Virus record (IMG/VR): IMGVR_UViG_3300018036_000025 | Coordinates: 1 to 39,445 of that record | Source of the DNA: a virus | DNA length: 39,445 nt | Reading direction: 5' to 3' (one strand) | Shown here: piece by piece, positions 6,818 to 27,473 of the stretch | Layout: each line of letters begins with the position of its first letter | How positions within the stretch are numbered: position 1 is the first letter of the stretch | Notes under the pieces: generated by a model | Databases searched by the model: none | Told to the model about the DNA's origin: nothing | Seen by the model: the letters and a program-made list of their open reading frames with translations, nothing else | Program-made: the position numbers and the translations under genes

Positions 6818-7396
6818 TCATAAAGGTACCATGTCAGCATTGAATGCTAATGAAATTCTATCTTCTGTTGCAGTACCCGCCGGCACAACATAGTGTATTA
6901 ACCAAGAAGGAAATAACAAAAGAGTTCCTGTCGTAGGTACGATGCGCTTATGAGTACTATTGAATTCATTCTCTTTGTCTATAACCTCAGGAAAAATCAC
7001 ATGCTCAACTGAACGATTGTTAGATGCAAACTCAATTGGATGACAGTTCTCATCTGCCTTTGGATAATATACTCCAGAGATAACTGCATATGCTCTTTCA
7101 CTGTGACTATGAGGAACAGAAATAAATTCATTCATATTGATGTTTGCCCATGCTTGAAATATTCTTTGCTTTAGTTTAGGATACAAAGATAACTTAGTAT
7201 GCATTGCATCTAGATATGTTTGCACAACACCATAGAACTGTGCCAGTTCAGGTTCTGTTCCATCAAACCAGATACTAGGACCTTCACTCTTTTCTTTTTG
7301 CTTGTAGATGAATTTACAGATATCATCATTGTTAATAAAAATTTCTTCATGCACGAAGAAGTCTGCAAACGCATGTTGTATGTTTACTTCTTTCAT
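6818..7396 (-). CDS. 2OG-Fe(II) oxygenase-like protein (copy 1)
   Basis: 192 residues of the double-stranded beta-helix 2-oxoglutarate/Fe(II) oxygenase type (TIGR02466-like, by memory). The metal-binding start PHSHSERAYAVISGVYYP, the distal His in FPSWLIHYV and the 2OG-binding Arg in RISLAFN are all present. Expected chemistry is hydroxylation coupled to 2OG decarboxylation; the substrate is unknown. In marine T4-like phages such enzymes are common and their targets mostly undefined. One of six in the window; distinct enough from the others to be an old paralogue or separate acquisition. Confidence 0.8.
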   Translation of the reverse strand: MKEVNIQHAFADFFVHEEIFINNDDICKFIYKQKEKSEGPSIWFDGTEPELAQFYGVVQTYLDAMHTKLSLYPKLKQRIFQAWANINMNEFISVPHSHSERAYAVISGVYYPKADENCHPIEFASNNRSVEHVIFPEVIDKENEFNSTHKRIVPTTGTLLLFPSWLIHYVVPAGTATEDRISLAFNADMVPL

Positions 7397-12820: not shown

Positions 12821-13429
12821 TTAATGTGGATATTTTGTATTGAAACTTATAACTATCCGCTCATTATCTGTCTCTGAACCTTTAGGTACGAGATGTTCCA
12901 ACCATGAAGGGAAGATAACAAGCAGTCCAGTTCTAGATTGTACTGCCGCATCCTGATGCCAGTAACCTTGAAGTGTGCTATTGTTTTCAGTCATTTCATA
13001 TTGACGATAGATATTAGTTGGATTGTTAAACATAATCGGTTGTGCAGTATCATCTGCTTTTACATATAACGCACCGCTAAGTGCAGACATATTGTGTCTG
13101 TGTGGATTTGTTGGTGTTCCTTTTTCATTAATGTTAAACCAACTGAATGTGTATTCTAAGTTCGACCTAAGTCCAGTGTGTCTACAATATTTTCTAATAG
13201 TTTTCATGCAGACTTCATTAACATCATTGAAGTTTGGTAAATCAAATAACTCTGGCGAATCCACTTCACCTAGTCGGAAACCTGATCCATAACTACTACC
13301 ACCGGGACCCTCAATCAAGTCATGTTGATATACTTTAAGATTTTTTATTCGGTGATATAAGTCTTTAAAGTCCAATTCTGCGGACACATCATATACACCA
13401 ATAGGTGTTGGAAACAAATCATATATCAT
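12821..13429 (-). CDS. 2OG-Fe(II) oxygenase-like protein (copy 2)
   Basis: 202 residues from the ATG at 13429, which overlaps the thyX stop as ATGA; a longer upstream frame is rejected. Opens FPTPIGVYDV, typical of the TIGR02466-like family. Metal site PHRHNMSALSGALYV, distal His in FPSWLEHLVPKG and Arg in RIVISFN are present. Substrate unknown. Coupling to thyX may mean expression with nucleotide metabolism genes, not a shared pathway. Confidence 0.82.
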   Translation of the reverse strand: MIYDLFPTPIGVYDVSAELDFKDLYHRIKNLKVYQHDLIEGPGGSSYGSGFRLGEVDSPELFDLPNFNDVNEVCMKTIRKYCRHTGLRSNLEYTFSWFNINEKGTPTNPHRHNMSALSGALYVKADDTAQPIMFNNPTNIYRQYEMTENNSTLQGYWHQDAAVQSRTGLLVIFPSWLEHLVPKGSETDNERIVISFNTKYPH

Positions 13430-14085
13430 ACAAGGTCCTCTGCAAGTGGAAATATGCCTGCAATCACTTCCGCACATGCTTTCGCAATTTCAATATGCTC
13501 TAACTGTGTTCCGTTAGCGGCACGAAGTTCAATGTAATGCATCCAAGAACGAAGTGTACCATTCATGTACAAACGTGACATAGTATTACCTTCTGGTAAG
13601 ACTGCTCTTGCTTGCTCTTTAGCAATACCGTTTTCGATTGCCCATTGATAAGCACTATTTGCTTCATCAATAACACCTCTTTGTCTTGCCGCCCATGCTT
13701 CTTGTAGAATTTCATCCTCTGTGGCGATGCTGTTTTGTCTATTTTTTTCATCTTGCAATCTCGCTTCTCTAATTACAAACTCTAAATCTTCTGTTGGATT
13801 AGCATACCGTTGACTAAACTCTTGAAAACTGAATGAACGATGTCTTAGAATTTGTCTTGCGATATCTCTTGTAGTCTCAATTTCTAAACAAGCAGACACC
13901 ATCTCAAAAGGTGACCAATGACTATGCTTTGCTAGATATGATAGAAGTTTTTTAGATGTTGCGGAGTTCATCTGTCCGCTAGGGTTTGATACTCTCGCGC
14001 AATAAGCGATTAAGTCTTGTACATCATCTAAACCTTCAATGTCACCGAGTGGTGGTTGTGAATATGAAATCAACTTTACTTTCAT
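13426..14085 (-). CDS. thyX: flavin-dependent thymidylate synthase ThyX
   Basis: 219 residues, the usual ThyX length. The signature RHRSFSFQEFSQR matches the family motif RHRxxSxxxxSxR that binds dUMP and flavin. The enzyme makes dTMP from dUMP using methylene-tetrahydrofolate and reduced flavin in the cytoplasm, supporting phage DNA synthesis in an AT-rich genome. The ATG at 14085 is preferred because GGAG precedes it; four extra residues would come from the ATG at 14097. Its stop overlaps the start of an oxygenase. Confidence 0.95.
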   Translation of the reverse strand: MKVKLISYSQPPLGDIEGLDDVQDLIAYCARVSNPSGQMNSATSKKLLSYLAKHSHWSPFEMVSACLEIETTRDIARQILRHRSFSFQEFSQRYANPTEDLEFVIREARLQDEKNRQNSIATEDEILQEAWAARQRGVIDEANSAYQWAIENGIAKEQARAVLPEGNTMSRLYMNGTLRSWMHYIELRAANGTQLEHIEIAKACAEVIAGIFPLAEDLV

Positions 14086-16041: not shown

Positions 16042-16668
16042 GTGAACATTGATTATATTTTTCCGCATCCAATTGCGGAGGTGCAACTAGATATCGATAA
16101 TGACAAACTATTACAAACAGTAGAAACCACTATTAGAGATTACTCAAACAATCCTTGGGATTGTGAAGTATTTTCAACTTACACTCATAGAGAATTAAAT
16201 GACGATATTATGAGTGTCAATATTGAACTATTAGAGCAGGTTCAATATCACGGTAGAGAATTCATAAAAGAAGTTGGATGGCATACTGATGCGCCTTTGT
16301 ATGCAGGTGACTTTTGGTTTAATTTTTATGAGAATGTTCATTGGCAGGAATCACATCATCACGGTATACATGACATATGTGCAATATATTACGCCACACC
16401 TGATATAGTTGCAACAGAATTTTTAAATCCAAACGACTATACATTTCATGCGAAGTATCCTAGAACTGGAAACAGTCCTGTTACTCAAAAATATTACAGT
16501 TCATTTCCTAAACCAGGAAAACTAATATTATTTCCTGGATATATAATGCATCAGGTTCCTTATAAGACTAGACAACCTATTACATATAAACAGCGAAGAT
16601 TGACAGTTGCTTTCAATTTTGATAAAGAAACTGATAGAATTGCCAACATTTGCCAAAAAAAGACTTGA
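16042..16668 (+). CDS. 2OG-Fe(II) oxygenase-like protein (copy 3)
   Basis: 208 residues. Opens FPHPIAEVQLDID as in the TIGR02466-like family. Metal site ESHHHGIHDICAIYYA, distal His in FPGYIMHQVPY, and RRLTVAFN for 2OG binding. GTG start directly after the upstream TAA, so translation is probably coupled. Substrate unknown. Confidence 0.78.
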   Translation: MNIDYIFPHPIAEVQLDIDNDKLLQTVETTIRDYSNNPWDCEVFSTYTHRELNDDIMSVNIELLEQVQYHGREFIKEVGWHTDAPLYAGDFWFNFYENVHWQESHHHGIHDICAIYYATPDIVATEFLNPNDYTFHAKYPRTGNSPVTQKYYSSFPKPGKLILFPGYIMHQVPYKTRQPITYKQRRLTVAFNFDKETDRIANICQKKT

Positions 16669-19741: not shown

Positions 19742-20251
19742 ATGAAAGACAATTACGCAGAGTGTTTAAAAACCATCCTTCACCATGAGGGTGGTTATGT
19801 AAATCATCCTAAAGACCCAGGAGGTGAAACTAATCTTGGTGTCACCAAACGTGTTTATGAAGAATGGGGTGGAACAAAAGATATGAAAGACCTTACGGTT
19901 GATGATGTTGCTCCAATTTATGAAAAAAATTATTGGGGTCGCGTTAAAGGAGATGAACTACCTAGTGGTTTAGACCTCTGCGTATTTGACTTTGGTGTGA
20001 ATGCTGGTACAGGACGTGCCGCCAAATATCTACAGCGAATGATTGGTACTGTAGCGGATGGTGGAATTGGTCCTAACACACTTAAAGCAGTTGCAAACTA
20101 CGTTGATGAGAATGGCATTGAAGGTGCTATCAGAGAGTATCAATCTGCGAGGCAGAGTTACTATGAATCCTTGAGTACCTTTGATACATTTGGAAAAGGT
20201 TGGACTCGCCGTGTAGAAGAAACAACAGAGAAGGCACTAAGTTTAATTTAG
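19742..20251 (+). CDS. endolysin, GH108-type muramidase
   Basis: 169 residues. The N-terminal HHEGGYVNHPKDPGGETNLG carries the catalytic Glu of the GH108 N-acetylmuramidase family (E at about 16). LDLCVFDFGVNAGTGRAAKYL and ADGGIGPNTLKAV belong to the family's C-terminal peptidoglycan-binding part. Cuts glycan strands for lysis. No signal peptide, so a holin is needed; none was identified with confidence. Confidence 0.9.
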   Translation: MKDNYAECLKTILHHEGGYVNHPKDPGGETNLGVTKRVYEEWGGTKDMKDLTVDDVAPIYEKNYWGRVKGDELPSGLDLCVFDFGVNAGTGRAAKYLQRMIGTVADGGIGPNTLKAVANYVDENGIEGAIREYQSARQSYYESLSTFDTFGKGWTRRVEETTEKALSLI

Positions 20252-20263
20252 TGAAAATTTATT

Positions 20264-20902
20264 ATGACTGATAATGCTAAACGCGAAGATTTAGAACCAG
20301 TAAGATATATGGAACTTGGAAGTAGCGAGGAAGACAAACGATTATACTCAGATTACTTCCAAAGGTCCTTCTATTGGATGTTTGGTGCTGGTGCGGATGG
20401 AGCATTTGCACATAGAAATTATTTTGTTTCTGACTATGATAATAATTTAAACTATATCAAATGCAATCCATATGTTAAAAATATTTGGATAAAGATAGCA
20501 CAGAAGTTAGACATAAATGTTAAGACCCAAGTTGGTAGATGTTACCTTCTTGGACAAACAGCGCAAATGGATGGTCCTTGGCATCAAGACAATACCGAAG
20601 ATGATGACTGTAGAACAATTGTATATTATCCTGTAAAAGAAGTTCATCGTAGACATAGAGGAACTCAGTTTAGATTTGATGATGGTGCGGAAGAAGAAGC
20701 ACCTTATCAACAAGATTGGTTCGTTGATTTCAATGCCGACATTTATCACAGAGGATTATCAACAACATCTAAAGATGATTTGCGAGTTGCGCTAGTATTT
20801 CAGTGTTATCACTTATCAAAAGTACAAGACTTTATTTTTCAGAACACTTGTGGTAATGATGAACGATTAGATGGTTTGATTGGTCCTATTGTTCCAAGAT
20901 GA
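20264..20902 (+). CDS. 2OG-Fe(II) oxygenase (copy 4, HxD type)
   Basis: 212 residues of a different subtype from the other copies: the metal site is WHQDNTEDDDCRTIVYYP (HxD) with the distal His in NADIYHRGLST and the 2OG Arg in LRVALVF, as in prolyl-4-hydroxylase-like phage enzymes. Cytoplasmic; substrate unknown. Coupled by ATGA to a second oxygenase-like gene. Confidence 0.82.
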   Translation: MTDNAKREDLEPVRYMELGSSEEDKRLYSDYFQRSFYWMFGAGADGAFAHRNYFVSDYDNNLNYIKCNPYVKNIWIKIAQKLDINVKTQVGRCYLLGQTAQMDGPWHQDNTEDDDCRTIVYYPVKEVHRRHRGTQFRFDDGAEEEAPYQQDWFVDFNADIYHRGLSTTSKDDLRVALVFQCYHLSKVQDFIFQNTCGNDERLDGLIGPIVPR

Positions 20903-21597
20903 TTTTTGATAGTAAAAACATTGAAACAAGACATTCATTTAGATTTAAGAGTATAGATGTTAAAAATAATCTATCTCTGAAGTATCCACGTTGTCTTATA
21001 GACATAACTAAGTTGAACGTGTCGTATTGTGATGAATTGTATAAGTTTCTTTTGAGTGAAGTATCAACTCTTATGAAACTAGAGGGTCACAAAGAAACTA
21101 CAGGACTTGATGCCCAAAGTCTTTCTACAAGATGGGATAGATATAATCTTCTAACAAAGTACAAAGACAACAAATTAATTCAAGAACTTGAAAAAAACAT
21201 CTTGACTTCTTATAAAAATTATTGTATAATATCTAATACTGAGATTGAACCTATAATGGTTCATTGTTGGTATAATGTTTTAGAAGCAGGACAAAGCATA
21301 AGTGAACATGTACATGACTATGGAACATATTCATATATCAGTGGTAATCTTTTTGTTGGTGGTGCTTGCGATACTTCTGTGACAAAATATATAATTATTA
21401 ATAGAGATGAAGAATTGGATATGAAAAATAATGTTGGAGATATGACCTACTTTCCTATGTATCTTCCACATCAAACAAATACTTATGATGGAGATACCCC
21501 TAGAGTAACCATAGGTATAAACATATATCCCAAAAGATTTTATGAAGACTTTCGCAAAAACAACCACAACTGGATAGAACATGTTTACACATCTTGA
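20899..21597 (+). CDS. 2OG-Fe(II) oxygenase-like protein (copy 5)
   Basis: 232 residues. SEHVHDYGTYSYISGNLFVG gives an HxHD-like metal site, FPMYLPHQTNTY the distal His, RVTIGINIYP the Arg. The N-terminal 90 residues are divergent from the other copies. Partner of the previous gene by overlap, so the two may act together. Substrate unknown. Confidence 0.7.
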   Translation: MIFDSKNIETRHSFRFKSIDVKNNLSLKYPRCLIDITKLNVSYCDELYKFLLSEVSTLMKLEGHKETTGLDAQSLSTRWDRYNLLTKYKDNKLIQELEKNILTSYKNYCIISNTEIEPIMVHCWYNVLEAGQSISEHVHDYGTYSYISGNLFVGGACDTSVTKYIIINRDEELDMKNNVGDMTYFPMYLPHQTNTYDGDTPRVTIGINIYPKRFYEDFRKNNHNWIEHVYTS

Positions 21598-22237
21598 ACC
21601 AAAAGAAATCGATGAACTACAAACAATCAATGAAGACAACATGCGTTTGTATGTGACACCTGATGGATTAAAATATCCATCAGTAACAACAGTACTAGGA
21701 TGGAAGTCTAAAGCAGGCATTCTAGAGTGGCGCAAACGAGTAGGTGAAGAAGCGGCGAACAAGATTAGTCGGCAAGCATCTACACGAGGAACTAAGTTTC
21801 ACTATCAAGTAGAAGACTACATCAACAACAAAGATGTTACTTTTGCTAATCCTGCAGAGAAGTCTATGTTTACTTCAGTTCAAGATTATCTAAACAGGAT
21901 AAATAATATACATGTTCAAGAAGCATCACTATATTCAGACTTCTTGAAGACTGCCGGTCGTGTAGACTGTATTGCAGAGTTTGATGGTCGACTTTCAATT
22001 ATTGATTTTAAGACCTCTAGCAGACCTAAACAAGCAGAGTACATTACCAACTACTTTCAACAAGGTAGTGCATATGCAGTAATGTATGAAGAGAGAACAG
22101 GTATACCAATTGATACTGTTGTTATTATAATGGCAGTAGAAGGTAACGAACCACAACTCTTCATAGAGAAGAGGGACAATTATATAGAGTCCTATAGAGA
22201 GGTTCGAAATGAATATCAGAAAGTCATGGGTATTTGA
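21581..22237 (+). CDS. PD-(D/E)XK exonuclease
   Basis: 218 residues. The pattern STRGTKFHYQVEDYI, then GRVDCIAEFDGRLSIIDFKT (D...DxK), then QQGSAYAVMYEERTG matches the RecB/MGME1-like PD-(D/E)XK exonucleases of marine T4-like phages. Likely role: recombination, DNA processing or host DNA degradation. Overlaps the upstream gene by 17 bases. Confidence 0.85.
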   Translation: MFTHLEPKEIDELQTINEDNMRLYVTPDGLKYPSVTTVLGWKSKAGILEWRKRVGEEAANKISRQASTRGTKFHYQVEDYINNKDVTFANPAEKSMFTSVQDYLNRINNIHVQEASLYSDFLKTAGRVDCIAEFDGRLSIIDFKTSSRPKQAEYITNYFQQGSAYAVMYEERTGIPIDTVVIIMAVEGNEPQLFIEKRDNYIESYREVRNEYQKVMGI

Positions 22238-22574
22238 TGTTATTGTATTGGTATGGTGTCTAACATTTTTATCCAGCATCACATTTGCTCAAGATAATTC
22301 AGAACATGAATATAGACAAGGACAAAAACCTGTTGTCTGTACTAAGAAACCATACAACGAAGTAAAAGCAGAATTCGCGAATGAGTACGGCGAAGTTGGA
22401 ATGATTAGATACAAAACTACACTACCTAGTATTGTCGAAGTTCTAGTTAACAAAGACAAAGGTACAGTCACAATATTAGAATTTCTTCCATCAGCAAATG
22501 TAACTTGCGTTATATCAGATGGAGGTGAATTAGAGTATAACAGTATTTTTGGTAATAATGGAATTACTACTTGA
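22209..22574 (+). CDS. exported hypothetical protein
   Basis: 121 residues with a Sec signal peptide (KSWVFDVIVLVWCLTFLSS, then ITFAQ, cleavage near 28). The small mature domain has two Cys (VVCTKK and NVTCVISD) that may pair in the periplasm. The gene starts inside the exonuclease frame (29-base overlap) with GAGG in front. The tmRNA promoter overlaps its 3' end. Unrecognised. Confidence 0.68.
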   Translation: MNIRKSWVFDVIVLVWCLTFLSSITFAQDNSEHEYRQGQKPVVCTKKPYNEVKAEFANEYGEVGMIRYKTTLPSIVEVLVNKDKGTVTILEFLPSANVTCVISDGGELEYNSIFGNNGITT

Positions 22575-22599
22575 CATTTACATCAAAGCATGTTATATA
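22571..22599 (+). promoter_or_regulatory. sigma70-type promoter for the tmRNA
   Basis: TTGACA (22571-22576), 17-bp spacer, TATATA (22594-22599); a TATAAT at 22598 gives a 21-bp spacer. The predicted start near 22606 coincides with the beginning of the acceptor half's pairing region. Confidence 0.75.
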
Positions 22600-22605
22600 T
22601 AATGT

Positions 22606-22669
22606 ACAGTTTGTTGATACAATCTGAATGACGGGCAGGACGTGGGTGCGATACCCACCGCCTCCACCA
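22606..22669 (+). ncRNA. ssrA: tmRNA acceptor half
   Basis: T-arm GTGGG (22642-22646) with CCCAC (22654-22658) around the loop TGCGATA, then CGCCTCC, A and encoded CCA (22667-22669). The loop has G where tRNAs and tmRNAs normally have U at position 55. The 5' part (22606-22620) pairs with the coding half. Confidence 0.85.
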
Positions 22670-22687
22670 TAATTACTTGAGGACAAT

Positions 22688-22831
22688 ATGTTTGATAGAC
22701 TAACAGAGTTTTTTATAAAACTGTTTAAGATACAAGAAAAGACACCAATAAGATATCTATCTGGTGTTGGTAAATCGAGTAATTATGATGGGGGCGAAAT
22801 AGGATCGACTGACGTAAACAGGAAAGAGTAG
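22688..22831 (+). CDS. possible small gene inside the tmRNA spacer
   Basis: ATG at 22688 with GAGGA upstream (22679-22683) opens a 47-residue frame that fills the spacer between the tmRNA halves and runs 42 bases into the coding half before TAG (22829-22831). The start MFDRLTEFFIKLFKIQEK is amphipathic; the part encoded by tmRNA sequence is polar. Spacers of permuted tmRNAs are normally removed, so translation would have to precede processing. It may be a real coincidence-free gene or chance. Confidence 0.35.
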   Translation: MFDRLTEFFIKLFKIQEKTPIRYLSGVGKSSNYDGGEIGSTDVNRKE

Positions 22832-22953
22832 AACTGTGGGATGACCGCCTAATAAGTCAAAACAAAGTAAATGCAAACGATAACATTGCATATGAAGATA
22901 TTCGCCTAGCGGCATAATCTTCTGGGTGTCGTAGGGACGCCTGGAAACAGAAG
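22790..22953 (+). ncRNA. ssrA: tmRNA coding half
   Basis: Starts with GGGGGCGAAATAGGATCGAC, the conserved tmRNA 5' end with the D-loop analogue. After the tag stop, CTTCTG/CAGAAG (22919-22924, 22948-22953) enclose GGTGTC/GACGCC (22925-22930, 22936-22941), the stem expected behind the tag. Exact 3' end unknown; a further palindrome GAAGCAATTGCTTC (22953-22966) follows. Confidence 0.85.
22873..22917 (+). other. tmRNA proteolysis tag frame
   Basis: From resume codon GCA (22873) to TAA (22915-22917): ANDNIAYEDIRLAA, 14 codons. The ANDN start and LAA end fit known tags. AAAT precedes the resume codon, keeping the A expected four bases upstream. Confidence 0.8.
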
Positions 22954-23005
22954 AAGCAATTGCTTCACCCTACATTTTACACACATACACACAAGGAGAA
23001 ATAGT

Positions 23006-23224
23006 ATGAGTAATCCATTCGATTTGCGCTTCTCTATGATTGAGAGTGCTAAACAACTGCTCACAGAGCAATATCACACTGATATCAGCAATATTAAAGA
23101 GAAATACTTTGCAGATAGAGAAGCGGGATTAGATGTTTCTTTTCCTGAACTTCCTGCATTTCCAACATTCGAAGATATCAGCAAACTAGCAAATGAGATG
23201 AATTCTTTCGTTTCACAACGCTAA
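23006..23224 (+). CDS. conserved small T4-like protein
   Basis: 72 residues: NPFDLRFSMIESAKQLLTEQ, then a charged middle and FPTFEDISKLANEMNSFVS. I recognise this layout (NPFDLR start, YPTFEDI end) from small conserved proteins of marine T4-like phages, function unknown. AAGGAG precedes the ATG. It directly follows the tmRNA and its stop is followed by a terminator. Confidence 0.75.
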   Translation: MSNPFDLRFSMIESAKQLLTEQYHTDISNIKEKYFADREAGLDVSFPELPAFPTFEDISKLANEMNSFVSQR

Positions 23225-23237
23225 GGTGGTAATAATG

Positions 23238-23277
23238 AGAAGTCAAGTGGTTTTCTGCTTGACTTCTTTCTTCTTTT
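23238..23277 (+). terminator. terminator hairpin containing the next promoter's -35 box
   Basis: AGAAGTCAAG (23238-23247) pairs perfectly with CTTGACTTCT (23258-23267) around ten bases, followed by a T/C-rich run (TTCTTCTTTT). The 3' arm holds TTGACT, the -35 box of the next promoter. Confidence 0.75.
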
Positions 23278-23287: not shown

Positions 23288-23293
23288 GTGTAC

Positions 23294-23824
23294 ATGATGA
23301 AAAAAACAATTGTGTTAACAGCATTAGTTGCTTCTGCAATCGCTTATAAGTCAAGCGGATCAAGTGCAGAGGTTGCAACCGAAACATTTACTATTGATGC
23401 AGAAACAACTTGTCTCGCAAAAAATATGTACTTTGAAGCAAAGGGACAACCCAAAGCAGGTCAGATTGCAGTATCACTAGTTGTTATGAACCGCGTTAAG
23501 GATTCAAGATTTCCTAACACTATATGTGAAGTGGTGCATCAAGGACCAACATCTAAGTGGTGGAAAGAAGAACACGACAAAGATGTTCCAATTAGAAATA
23601 AGTGTCAGTTTAGTTGGTTCTGTGATGGCAAGTCTGACGAAATTAACGATGTGTACGCATACTCAGGACTATATCTTTTAGCGACAAAAGTATTAGATGG
23701 TCGTTATGATGGTATGATTGAGGGGTCGACACATTATCATGCAACTTATGTAAATCCTTATTGGGCAAAGACGAAAACATATATTGCTCAAATAGGTGAC
23801 CACATTTTTTATAGATGGGATTAA
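23294..23824 (+). CDS. SleB-like cell wall hydrolase, exported
   Basis: 176 residues. A hydrophobic signal sequence (KKTIVLTALVASAIAYKSSG) is followed by a SleB/Hydrolase_2-type domain: TCLAKNMYFEAKGQPKAGQI with a catalytic-type Glu, NRVKDSRFPNTICEVVHQ and STHYHATYVNPYWAKT. Members cut the glycan or peptide part of peptidoglycan. With a signal peptide it would reach the periplasm without a holin. ATG at 23294 or 23297; no ribosome binding site, and the promoter predicts a leaderless mRNA. Separate from the GH108 endolysin, so perhaps for entry, egress or wall remodelling. Confidence 0.85.
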   Translation: MMKKTIVLTALVASAIAYKSSGSSAEVATETFTIDAETTCLAKNMYFEAKGQPKAGQIAVSLVVMNRVKDSRFPNTICEVVHQGPTSKWWKEEHDKDVPIRNKCQFSWFCDGKSDEINDVYAYSGLYLLATKVLDGRYDGMIEGSTHYHATYVNPYWAKTKTYIAQIGDHIFYRWD

Positions 23825-23830
23825 AATAAT

Positions 23831-24064
23831 ATGACTACAAATCCAGAACCGATGACTCCAAGAAGATTTTCTAATATAGTAGAAGGTATAGTAAGAGAAA
23901 AGCAAGTTAATTATATGGATGCAATTCTTATTTATTGTGAGAAACATGAACTTGAACCTGAAGACATTCGTAAGTTTGTAAGTAAAACACTTAAAGAAAA
24001 AGTAGCATTAAATGCACAAGACTTGCATTATCTTCCTAAGACAACTGCAGAATTGCCGGTATGA
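23831..24064 (+). CDS. 33: late transcription coactivator gp33
   Basis: 77 residues. RFSNIVEGIVREKQVNYMDA, ILIYCEKHELEPEDIRKFVS and a C-terminal LHYLPKTTAELPV correspond to marine T4-like gp33 proteins, which bridge the sliding clamp and RNA polymerase at TATAAATA promoters. Position two genes before 32 and one before 59 agrees with T4 order (33-59-32). It links directly to the late promoters found in this window. Confidence 0.82.
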   Translation: MTTNPEPMTPRRFSNIVEGIVREKQVNYMDAILIYCEKHELEPEDIRKFVSKTLKEKVALNAQDLHYLPKTTAELPV

Positions 24065-24591
24065 TGACAGAAATTGATTTATGGTCAACTCGACTGTATG
24101 AGTTTTACTTTTCGGAGGACCAGATTGACGCATCCAGACTTGAACTTGATGCATATAGAAATAAAAATTCTAAGAATAAACAAAGTCCAGCATTATATTA
24201 TACCACTTTTAATAATCCGACAATCTTAGATGCCGGCGATGCAACTAGTGAATTATTATCTCTTGTAGAGTGGCAGATAACAAAGCACACAAAACAAAAA
24301 TGGACAATCAATTCATCTTGGGTGAACTATGTTCCTAAGAATAATGTTCATAGTATGCATAGACATGGTGATGATAATATGATGTGCGGCATTTTATATT
24401 ATGACAATATAGGTGGGACAGATTTTTATGACCCTAGAGTTCAAATATATAATGATGTTGCACAAGAGATTAAATCTGAGAAGGGAAAGTGTATATTATT
24501 TCCTGGTTGGTTGATGCATGAGATGTATCCTCACAATGAAGAAGTTGAACGTGTTACACTACCATTTAACATGAATAGAGTAGAATTGTGA
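24061..24591 (+). CDS. 2OG-Fe(II) oxygenase-like protein (copy 6)
   Basis: 176 residues. Metal site HSMHRHGDDNMMCGILYYD, distal His in FPGWLMHEMYPH, Arg in RVTLPFN. Inserted between gp33 and gp59, joined by ATGA upstream and GTGA downstream, so it is translated with replication and late-transcription factors. T4 has no gene at this position. Substrate unknown. Confidence 0.78.
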   Translation: MMTEIDLWSTRLYEFYFSEDQIDASRLELDAYRNKNSKNKQSPALYYTTFNNPTILDAGDATSELLSLVEWQITKHTKQKWTINSSWVNYVPKNNVHSMHRHGDDNMMCGILYYDNIGGTDFYDPRVQIYNDVAQEIKSEKGKCILFPGWLMHEMYPHNEEVERVTLPFNMNRVEL

Positions 24592-27039: not shown

Positions 27040-27279
27040 CTATTCAATTGAGTACTTCTTTAACTTGTGTATCAATAGAGTACGACCGATACCTAGACGT
27101 TTTGCCGCGTGTGATTTGTTATTGTTCGAAATCGCCATCGCATCGACTATTCTTCTCTTCTCTAATTCTTCTAACTCTGTAGATAGTTTAGTCTCTGATG
27201 TTGCCCACATCTCTGCTAGATTTTTGAGTTCTGTGTACCATACGTCTTGCTCTTCTGCGTAACTTGCTGTTTGTCTCAT
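27040..27279 (-). CDS. Fis-type HTH DNA-binding protein
   Basis: 79 residues. The C-terminal 40 match the Fis/NtrC helix-turn-helix: KRRIVDAMAISNNNKSHAAK followed by RLGIGRTLLIHKLKKYSI. The N-terminal half is a helix that may dimerise. Likely a DNA-bending or regulatory protein. ATGA overlap with its upstream neighbour. Confidence 0.82.
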   Translation of the reverse strand: MRQTASYAEEQDVWYTELKNLAEMWATSETKLSTELEELEKRRIVDAMAISNNNKSHAAKRLGIGRTLLIHKLKKYSIE

Positions 27280-27473
27280 GTTGATGATGATCCTATTGGT
27301 TTACATTGCCATTCTACTGTCTGGAAAGGTCCATCAGGTGGAATCTCAGTATACTCATTTAATGCAATTTCGCATTGTTTCTGTGTATCAAACCATTGTA
27401 CGTCTTGTGATACGCATTGCATCATTTGTGTGTCTAGACATGCAGTGAGCATTATGTGCCATATTGTATTCAT
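27276..27473 (-). CDS. small exported Cys-containing protein
   Basis: 65 residues; hydrophobic N-terminus (NTIWHIMLTACLDTQMMQC), Cys at about 12, 20, 34 and 57, and a Pro-rich end. Could be exported, but the signal is short. ATGA overlaps at both ends. Function unknown. Confidence 0.6.
   Translation of the reverse strand: MNTIWHIMLTACLDTQMMQCVSQDVQWFDTQKQCEIALNEYTEIPPDGPFQTVEWQCKPIGSSST

Follow-up and report, generated by a model that had tools for sequence, protein, structure and literature searches.

Permuted, two-piece tmRNAs occur in alphaproteobacteria (Rfam families RF01849 and RF04321) and in phages. A two-piece tmRNA was described in 2022 for the Methylophilales phage Melnitz (PMC9004378), and two-piece forms make up 53 of the 133 unique phage tmRNA structures given in that paper, 50 of them from marine or aquatic phages. 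The role proposed there is a tagging of host proteins or the upkeep of translation, which comes close to the steering of ribosome rescue and tag-directed proteolysis suggested in an earlier note on the DNA discussed here. The same note knew of no permuted tmRNA in a T4-like phage, a statement of novelty which falls because PMC9004378 describes the two-piece tmRNA of Melnitz. Protein genes within tmRNA genes have been reported as well, namely homing-endonuclease genes in group I introns of tmRNA genes (23 of 844 introns; PMC11915505).

Here we analyze a virus record of 39,445 bases (hereafter referred to as the window) that carries a permuted tmRNA gene, as do the T4-like marine phages Melnitz (MZ577097) and Pelagibacter phage Mosig (MT647606). 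While the two-piece phage tmRNA itself is already known, the new element consists of probable genes nested in the spacer between its two pieces; the reading frame in this spacer is the most unusual feature of the locus and was not mentioned in the earlier note. The situation resembles that of the intron-borne homing endonucleases (PMC11915505) in that a protein gene lies inside a tmRNA gene, in the part that is removed. It differs in that there is no intron, the slot being the spacer of a permuted gene, and in that small proteins of several families are involved. The order of the halves, the acceptor stem, the G3:U70 pair and the tag type are shared with the alphaproteobacterial permuted tmRNA, whereas the spacers differ (see below). 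Dual-function small RNAs such as SgrS and RNAIII also encode a peptide, and there the reading frame is part of the working RNA. The likeness consists in one transcript combining an RNA function with a small ORF, but in the present case most of the ORF is located in a stretch that the mature RNA should lack. A literature search on ORFs in the spacer of a permuted tmRNA yielded no report among the matches listed, which represent titles and starts of abstracts, with subscription papers and preprints mostly outside.

The permuted tmRNA and its genomic neighborhood

ARAGORN and two Rfam models agree on a permuted two-piece tmRNA at approximately 22567–22961 of the window. ARAGORN calls a tmRNA at 22575–23008 with the tag ANDNIAYEDIRLAA. 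The model RF04321 (tmRNA_permuted) matches positions 22608–22917 with 108.3 bits (E 2.2e-20; gathering cut-off 47), and RF01849 (alpha_tmRNA) matches 22567–22961 with 104 bits (E 1.6e-27; gathering cut-off 50). The earlier note had read an RNA of the alphaproteobacterial type from the letters and had named a covariance-model search as a check; with both scores far above threshold, this reading is confirmed.

The acceptor half, which is the 3′ tRNA-like piece and is made first, extends on the plus strand from 22606 (5′ end approximate) to 22669 and terminates in an encoded CCA (22667–22669). It precedes the coding half, composed of the 5′ tRNA-like piece and the mRNA-like region, which extends on the same strand from 22790 to 22961 (3′ end approximate, taken from the RF01849 match). 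The sequence GGGGGCG at 22790–22796 forms the acceptor stem with CGCCTCC, in which seven of seven positions pair and the third pair is G:U (G3:U70). Direct reading further locates GGATCGAC at 22802–22809, and the tag frame ANDNIAYEDIRLAA* at 22873–22917 (plus strand; also given by ARAGORN), which ends in AA and a stop. The stem with its G:U pair, the encoded CCA, the tag, and the ends of the halves at 22669 and 22790 had all been pointed out before, and each is correct in the sequence. Judged by these sequence features, the tmRNA encoded by this T4-like marine phage is permuted, complete and of the alphaproteobacterial type.

The assignment to a T4-like phage, also made in the earlier note, is supported by a gene for a T4 gp33-type late-transcription coactivator (23831–24064, plus strand; PF16805, E 7.4e-20), which is located 0.9 kb downstream of the tmRNA with two further ORFs intervening. 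On the upstream side, a gene for an exonuclease-like protein (21581–22237, plus strand; phrog_298, E 4.8e-74) is in synteny with the genes for PD-(D/E)XK nucleases in Melnitz and Mosig, and the interval between nuclease and tmRNA is taken by a hypothetical ORF of the ORF list (22209–22574, plus strand) without a PHROGs match. The ssrA gene of the window sits between a nuclease gene and a late-transcription coactivator, as does the ssrA gene of phages of the Melnitz and Mosig kind. The gene order in Melnitz is PD-(D/E)XK nuclease, two small ORFs, ssrA and late-transcription coactivator, and in Mosig it is PD-(D/E)XK nuclease, one small ORF, ssrA and a putative late-promoter accessory gene. A search for smpB found the gene in none of eight phage records, Melnitz and Mosig included (the window is not among them), and in 10 of 14 named genomes that served as a control. 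Because smpB is missing from all eight phage records searched, the SmpB of the host is presumably used.

Several other features of the surroundings may be mentioned. A terminator-like hairpin of 14 pairs with a T-rich tail (23237–23268, plus strand) follows the ORF after the tmRNA. Two cell-wall hydrolases flank the tmRNA, a glycosyl hydrolase 108 (19742–20251, plus strand; PF05838) and a Hydrolase_2 (23288–23824, plus strand; PF07486). The domain PF13759 occurs five times in the 39 kb, each time above cut-off and in a different putative 2OG-Fe(II) oxygenase (6818–7396 and 12821–13477 on the minus strand; 16042–16668, 20899–21597 and 24061–24591 on the plus strand), and a sixth candidate for such an oxygenase (20264–20902) has no Pfam match.

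The tmRNA had also been credited with its own sigma70-type promoter. TTGACA (22571–22576) and TATATA (22594–22599) are indeed present with a spacing of 17 nt on the plus strand (22571–22599), and 65 of 141 viral tmRNAs have the form TTGACN-N16-18-TATAWW in the 100 nt preceding them, compared to 25 among 2446 control windows. Enrichment is lower with a looser pattern (23 of 141 versus 62 of 2446). The claim stands with respect to the motif and its enrichment; it finds no backing in the consensus scan, whose list does not contain 22571–22599. Transcription would start from this promoter.

Reading frames nested in the spacer

The two halves are separated by a spacer of 120 nt (22670–22789, plus strand, ARAGORN domain limits), which is expected to be cut out. 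It begins with UAAUUACUUGAGGACAAUAUG, such that the CCA is followed by a Shine-Dalgarno (SD) motif, GAGG (22679–22682, plus strand), and then by an ATG at 22688. This ATG opens a small ORF of 47 codons and a TAG (22688–22831, plus strand; MFDRLTEFFIKLFKIQEKTPIRYLSGVGKSSNYDGGEIGSTDVNRKE), the last codons of which lie inside the coding half of the tmRNA, with the stop (22829–22831) 42 nt into it. The spacer of the window appears to hold a small protein gene, which we infer to be translated. The Melnitz spacer is similar, with an SD+ATG frame of 54 codons in the same place and a stop 42 nt into the coding half. The feature table of the Melnitz record lists only SsrA at this position, and PMC9004378, in the parts available to us, gives no gene there either. 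Mosig differs, as its spacer of 54 nt (ARAGORN limits) contains no comparable ORF.

The ends of the spacer pair with each other. In the fold of the window, the 5′ arm UAAUUACUUGA (22670–22680, plus strand) continues the acceptor stem and pairs with the 3′ arm UCGAGUAAUUA (22775–22785, plus strand), amounting to 11 pairs as listed for the related loci L124 and L125, with the SD motif at the tip of the helix. In several families the SD lies inside the helix, as seen by eye for AAAGGAGAUU and AAUCUCUUUU in L071. The mean pairing of spacer ends is 11.2 bp in 30 spacers with a nested gene and 11.5 bp in 80 other viral spacers of at least 50 nt, compared to 4.7 bp and 4.5 bp, respectively, after shuffling; bacterial spacer ends (n = 8) display 7.5 bp. 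Since the helix is equally long without a gene, it is not specific to nested-gene expression, and its first role is probably in processing, as gene-free spacers carry the same helix. The 3′ arm lies in or beside the end of the ORF, for which reason folding and translation should compete. Because the helix covers or abuts the SD, translation is probably limited to the nascent or unfolded precursor.

Viral permuted tmRNAs were gathered from virus contigs by tmRNA patterns and the upstream nuclease, and permuted tmRNAs of alphaproteobacterial genomes served as bacterial comparison (the matches listed in both cases). Spacers were defined by ARAGORN domain limits, and hits running off a contig (L014, L328) were skipped. 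Among the matches listed, the median spacer length is 78 nt in viruses (138 loci) and 30 nt in alphaproteobacteria (109 loci). Some loci represent one contig twice (L413/L674, L379/L671), so that the numbers of loci in this analysis do not equal numbers of independent viruses. An SD+ATG ORF of at least 20, 30 or 40 amino acids is present in 28, 22 and 18, respectively, of the 100 distinct viral spacers of at least 60 nt among the matches listed, a set that includes the window and Melnitz (which drew attention first), counts related spacers more than once and may contain prophages. Shuffled versions of these spacers yield on average 4.56, 1.35 and 0.30 such ORFs, with maxima of 10, 5 and 2 in 200 shuffles, and the antisense strand of the same 100 spacers has none. 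Likewise, none of the seven distinct alphaproteobacterial spacers of at least 60 nt among the matches listed contains an SD+ATG ORF of 20 amino acids. With a slightly wider list of SD motifs, an ORF of at least 20 amino acids is found inside 31 of 144 distinct viral spacers. Most viral spacers, the shorter ones above all, are devoid of a nested ORF, and 72 of the 100 have no SD+ATG ORF of 20 amino acids.

Protein families and exchange of spacers

BLASTP groups the nested proteins into 15 clusters, of which 7 have more than one distinct member and 8 are single; some of the short single-cluster proteins may be chance frames. The family letters used in the following (A–G) are labels of this analysis. 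In a first comparison, dN is smaller than dS in every non-identical pair within families. Examples are L373/L406 with 33 synonymous versus 9 nonsynonymous changes, L026/L049 with 5 versus 1, L096/L037 (dS 1.23, dN 0.18) and L397/L390 (dS 0.62, dN 0.03), the pair L357/L008 being weaker (3 synonymous versus 8 nonsynonymous changes). Among the Melnitz-type proteins of family A, L659/L674 display a dS of 1.59 and a dN of 0.32, and the near-identical L662/L667 a single change, which is nonsynonymous.

Homologs of nested genes also occur as free-standing genes. In Melnitz, L052, L116 and L127, a free gene of family F immediately precedes the tmRNA, some 100 nt ahead of the spacer, and the window itself holds a free copy at 27276–27473 (minus strand), with 53% identity to the nested protein of L096 (E 5e-20). 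Free genes upstream of the tmRNA are also found for family B (L117, L388, L360), for family G (12 of 17 other loci) and for family D (upstream of a tmRNA in L068). We further searched by protein alone for families B, F and D, considering the best 80 of 320, 281 and 398 relatives, respectively. For family B, 57 of 80 loci have the gene inside a tmRNA spacer (recognized by ARAGORN in 50 and by pattern in 7); of the remaining loci, 1 is doubtful, 5 have the gene elsewhere near a tmRNA, and 17 are without a recognized tmRNA. The 79 loci of family F comprise 14 in a spacer, 24 upstream and 41 without a recognized tmRNA, and the 80 loci of family D comprise 5 in a spacer, 12 elsewhere near a tmRNA and 63 with none recognized. 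The counts without a tmRNA refer to approximately 2.5 kb on each side and are upper bounds because ARAGORN misses some; two such handles, L553 and L461, share contigs with L390 and L037, where the gene sits inside a spacer. All 18 loci found for the Melnitz-type family A lie between CCACCA and the start of the coding half (11 by ARAGORN, 7 by motif).

Database matches of the nested proteins are sparse. A comparison of ten of them with PHROGs displays no more than two matches, both weak (E 0.047 and 0.067) and of unknown function, and Pfam yields only sub-threshold DUF matches for two of the nested proteins and none for that of Melnitz. In the isolated-phage collection, families D and B have no match and family F matches only four Melnitz records. 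Within the subset of nested proteins scanned against these libraries, none is recognized as a nuclease. From the pattern of substitutions and the free homologs, we conclude at the level of sequence that the recurrent nested frames are genes. By eye, several nested proteins look membrane-like. The family-B spacers L087, L390 and L063 (the latter two judged by eye) contain an additional short frame, which has GDSDE close to its beginning and extends into the first part of the nested gene, itself read in a different frame; translational coupling of the two is possible.

For a comparison of spacers and halves, 310 tmRNAs were reduced to 236 distinct viral genes, leaving out duplicates and any that lacked 70 nt of preceding or 130 nt of following sequence. 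Pairs were skipped if both spacers were shorter than 70 nt, spacers were regarded as the same only if their lengths agreed within 20%, and pairs with the same halves were pre-filtered on the acceptor half. In this set, in which families A, B, D and F are overrepresented and pairs are not independent, 206 pairs have spacers of at least 88% identity, and in 109 of these the halves are less than 90% identical, down to 64%. The loci L182 and L498, for instance, are 98% identical in the spacer and 68% identical in the halves. Conversely, 29 pairs have halves of at least 93% identity and different spacers. The halves of L119 and L125 are identical over 199 nt while their spacers hold families E and A, and L478 and L662 (halves at least 93% identical) combine a 54-nt spacer with a 142-nt spacer containing a gene. 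Chimeric assembly could conceivably account for single pairs of this kind. As read from these comparisons, the spacer slot and the tmRNA halves are exchanged separately.

Proposed mechanism and alternative explanations

We consider it likely that the window encodes a complete permuted tmRNA, the excised spacer of which holds a gene for a small protein, equipped with a separate ribosome-binding site, and serves as a site for exchangeable gene cassettes. By analogy with the family, the precursor would be cut at 22669/22670 (after CCA) and at 22789/22790 (before GGGGGCG), and the two pieces would pair into a chargeable tmRNA that is charged with alanine and works with SmpB of the host. The nested frame, driven by the tmRNA promoter, would be translated on the nascent precursor before processing. 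Related phages carry other, unrelated small genes in this position. Since the slot holds varying genes that are exchanged apart from the halves, the spacer would act as an exchangeable cassette site. A possible advantage of nesting is that the spacer is free of tmRNA function, such that an insertion would cost the mature tmRNA nothing, and the conserved halves may serve as arms for recombination.

A more far-reaching version of this model is put forward tentatively, as something we doubt more than we believe. It regards the spacer as a natural cassette slot whose protein genes are swapped by recombination in the conserved halves. A helix masking the ribosome-binding site would allow each transcript either to have its cargo translated or to mature into tmRNA, but not both, such that one RNA would become either message or rescue RNA. 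With a stop beyond the cut, maturation itself would generate a nonstop message on which the tmRNA could act. The window has its stop in such a position, hence a ribosome on the processed spacer would be without a stop codon and would need tmRNA. This is not a general design, because only 19 of 82 nested ORFs (enriched set) have their stop beyond the cut, the other 63 having it within the spacer.

An ordinary phage permuted tmRNA, in which the ORF of the window is a chance frame in a long processing spacer even if genes are nested elsewhere, appears unlikely to us, though it has points in its favor. The nested protein of the window has no match in PHROGs or Pfam, and in the isolated-phage collection it matches only the four Melnitz records, weakly (E about 1). 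The likeness between window-type and Melnitz-type proteins is weak as well (p 0.01–0.04, with the unrelated-looking protein of L182 scoring equally), their dN is near dS, and the spacer DNA of window and Melnitz is 63% alike, which is about the level of unrelated flanks. Window-type sequences differ too little for a test of selection, with 2 synonymous changes and 1 nonsynonymous change between window and L411 and 2 and 5, respectively, between window and L125 (few changes available); for L660/L411, dN exceeds dS. The stop, moreover, lies in the coding half, where any frame closes eventually. These points are outweighed in our view by the placement of SD and ATG as in other nested genes, since the distance of 18 nt between CCA and ATG is the same or nearly so in many of them, and by the length of the frame, which is beyond chance as judged from two relatives: 47 codons are reached in none of 300 shuffles of the spacer of either L124 (near-identical to the window) or L125 (p = 0.000). 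In addition, window and L411 are 98% identical in the spacer, compared to 81–82% in the tmRNA halves and 63–64% in the flanks.

The spacers might instead be conserved as structured or regulatory RNA, with the frames as an untranslated by-product. The pairing of viral spacer ends over 11–12 bp with or without an ORF would fit such a role, as would the likeness of the window and L411 spacers at synonymous sites too. Third-position bias together with a dN smaller than dS in families B to F and in Melnitz-type A, the homologous free-standing genes outside tmRNA, and the antisense strand without ORFs of the nested type render this highly improbable. Still harder to believe is a tmRNA pseudogene split by an inserted gene, a reading that we reject. 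Viral spacers are longer than alphaproteobacterial ones, which speaks for such a split, but the scores of both Rfam models far exceed the respective thresholds, and the conservation of acceptor stem, G3:U70, CCA and tag is about the same as in gene-free tmRNAs. Among 33 nested-gene tmRNAs named by hand, seven of seven acceptor pairs are present in 32, G3:U70 in 31 and a tag ending in AA in all 33, the corresponding numbers for 114 other viral tmRNAs being 112, 113 and 112. The two without G3:U70, L368 (a second ARAGORN call at one locus) and L373 (boundary probably misplaced), are kept in this count.

Returning to the interpretation as spacer-nested genes, such genes escape annotation, as illustrated by the one missing from the feature table of Melnitz, and they would explain many long spacers. 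A tmRNA with a nested gene would be a natural bifunctional RNA whose roles in message and rescue may compete. The slot points to a catalog of small phage proteins driven by the tmRNA promoter, and reading long spacers of permuted tmRNAs may be a simple way to find more of these genes. At the short end of the range, the Pelagibacter tmRNAs L309, L311 and L315 have spacers of 11–12 nt and short tags (ANESYAIAA/ANESYALAA), compared to the ANDN-type tag of the window.
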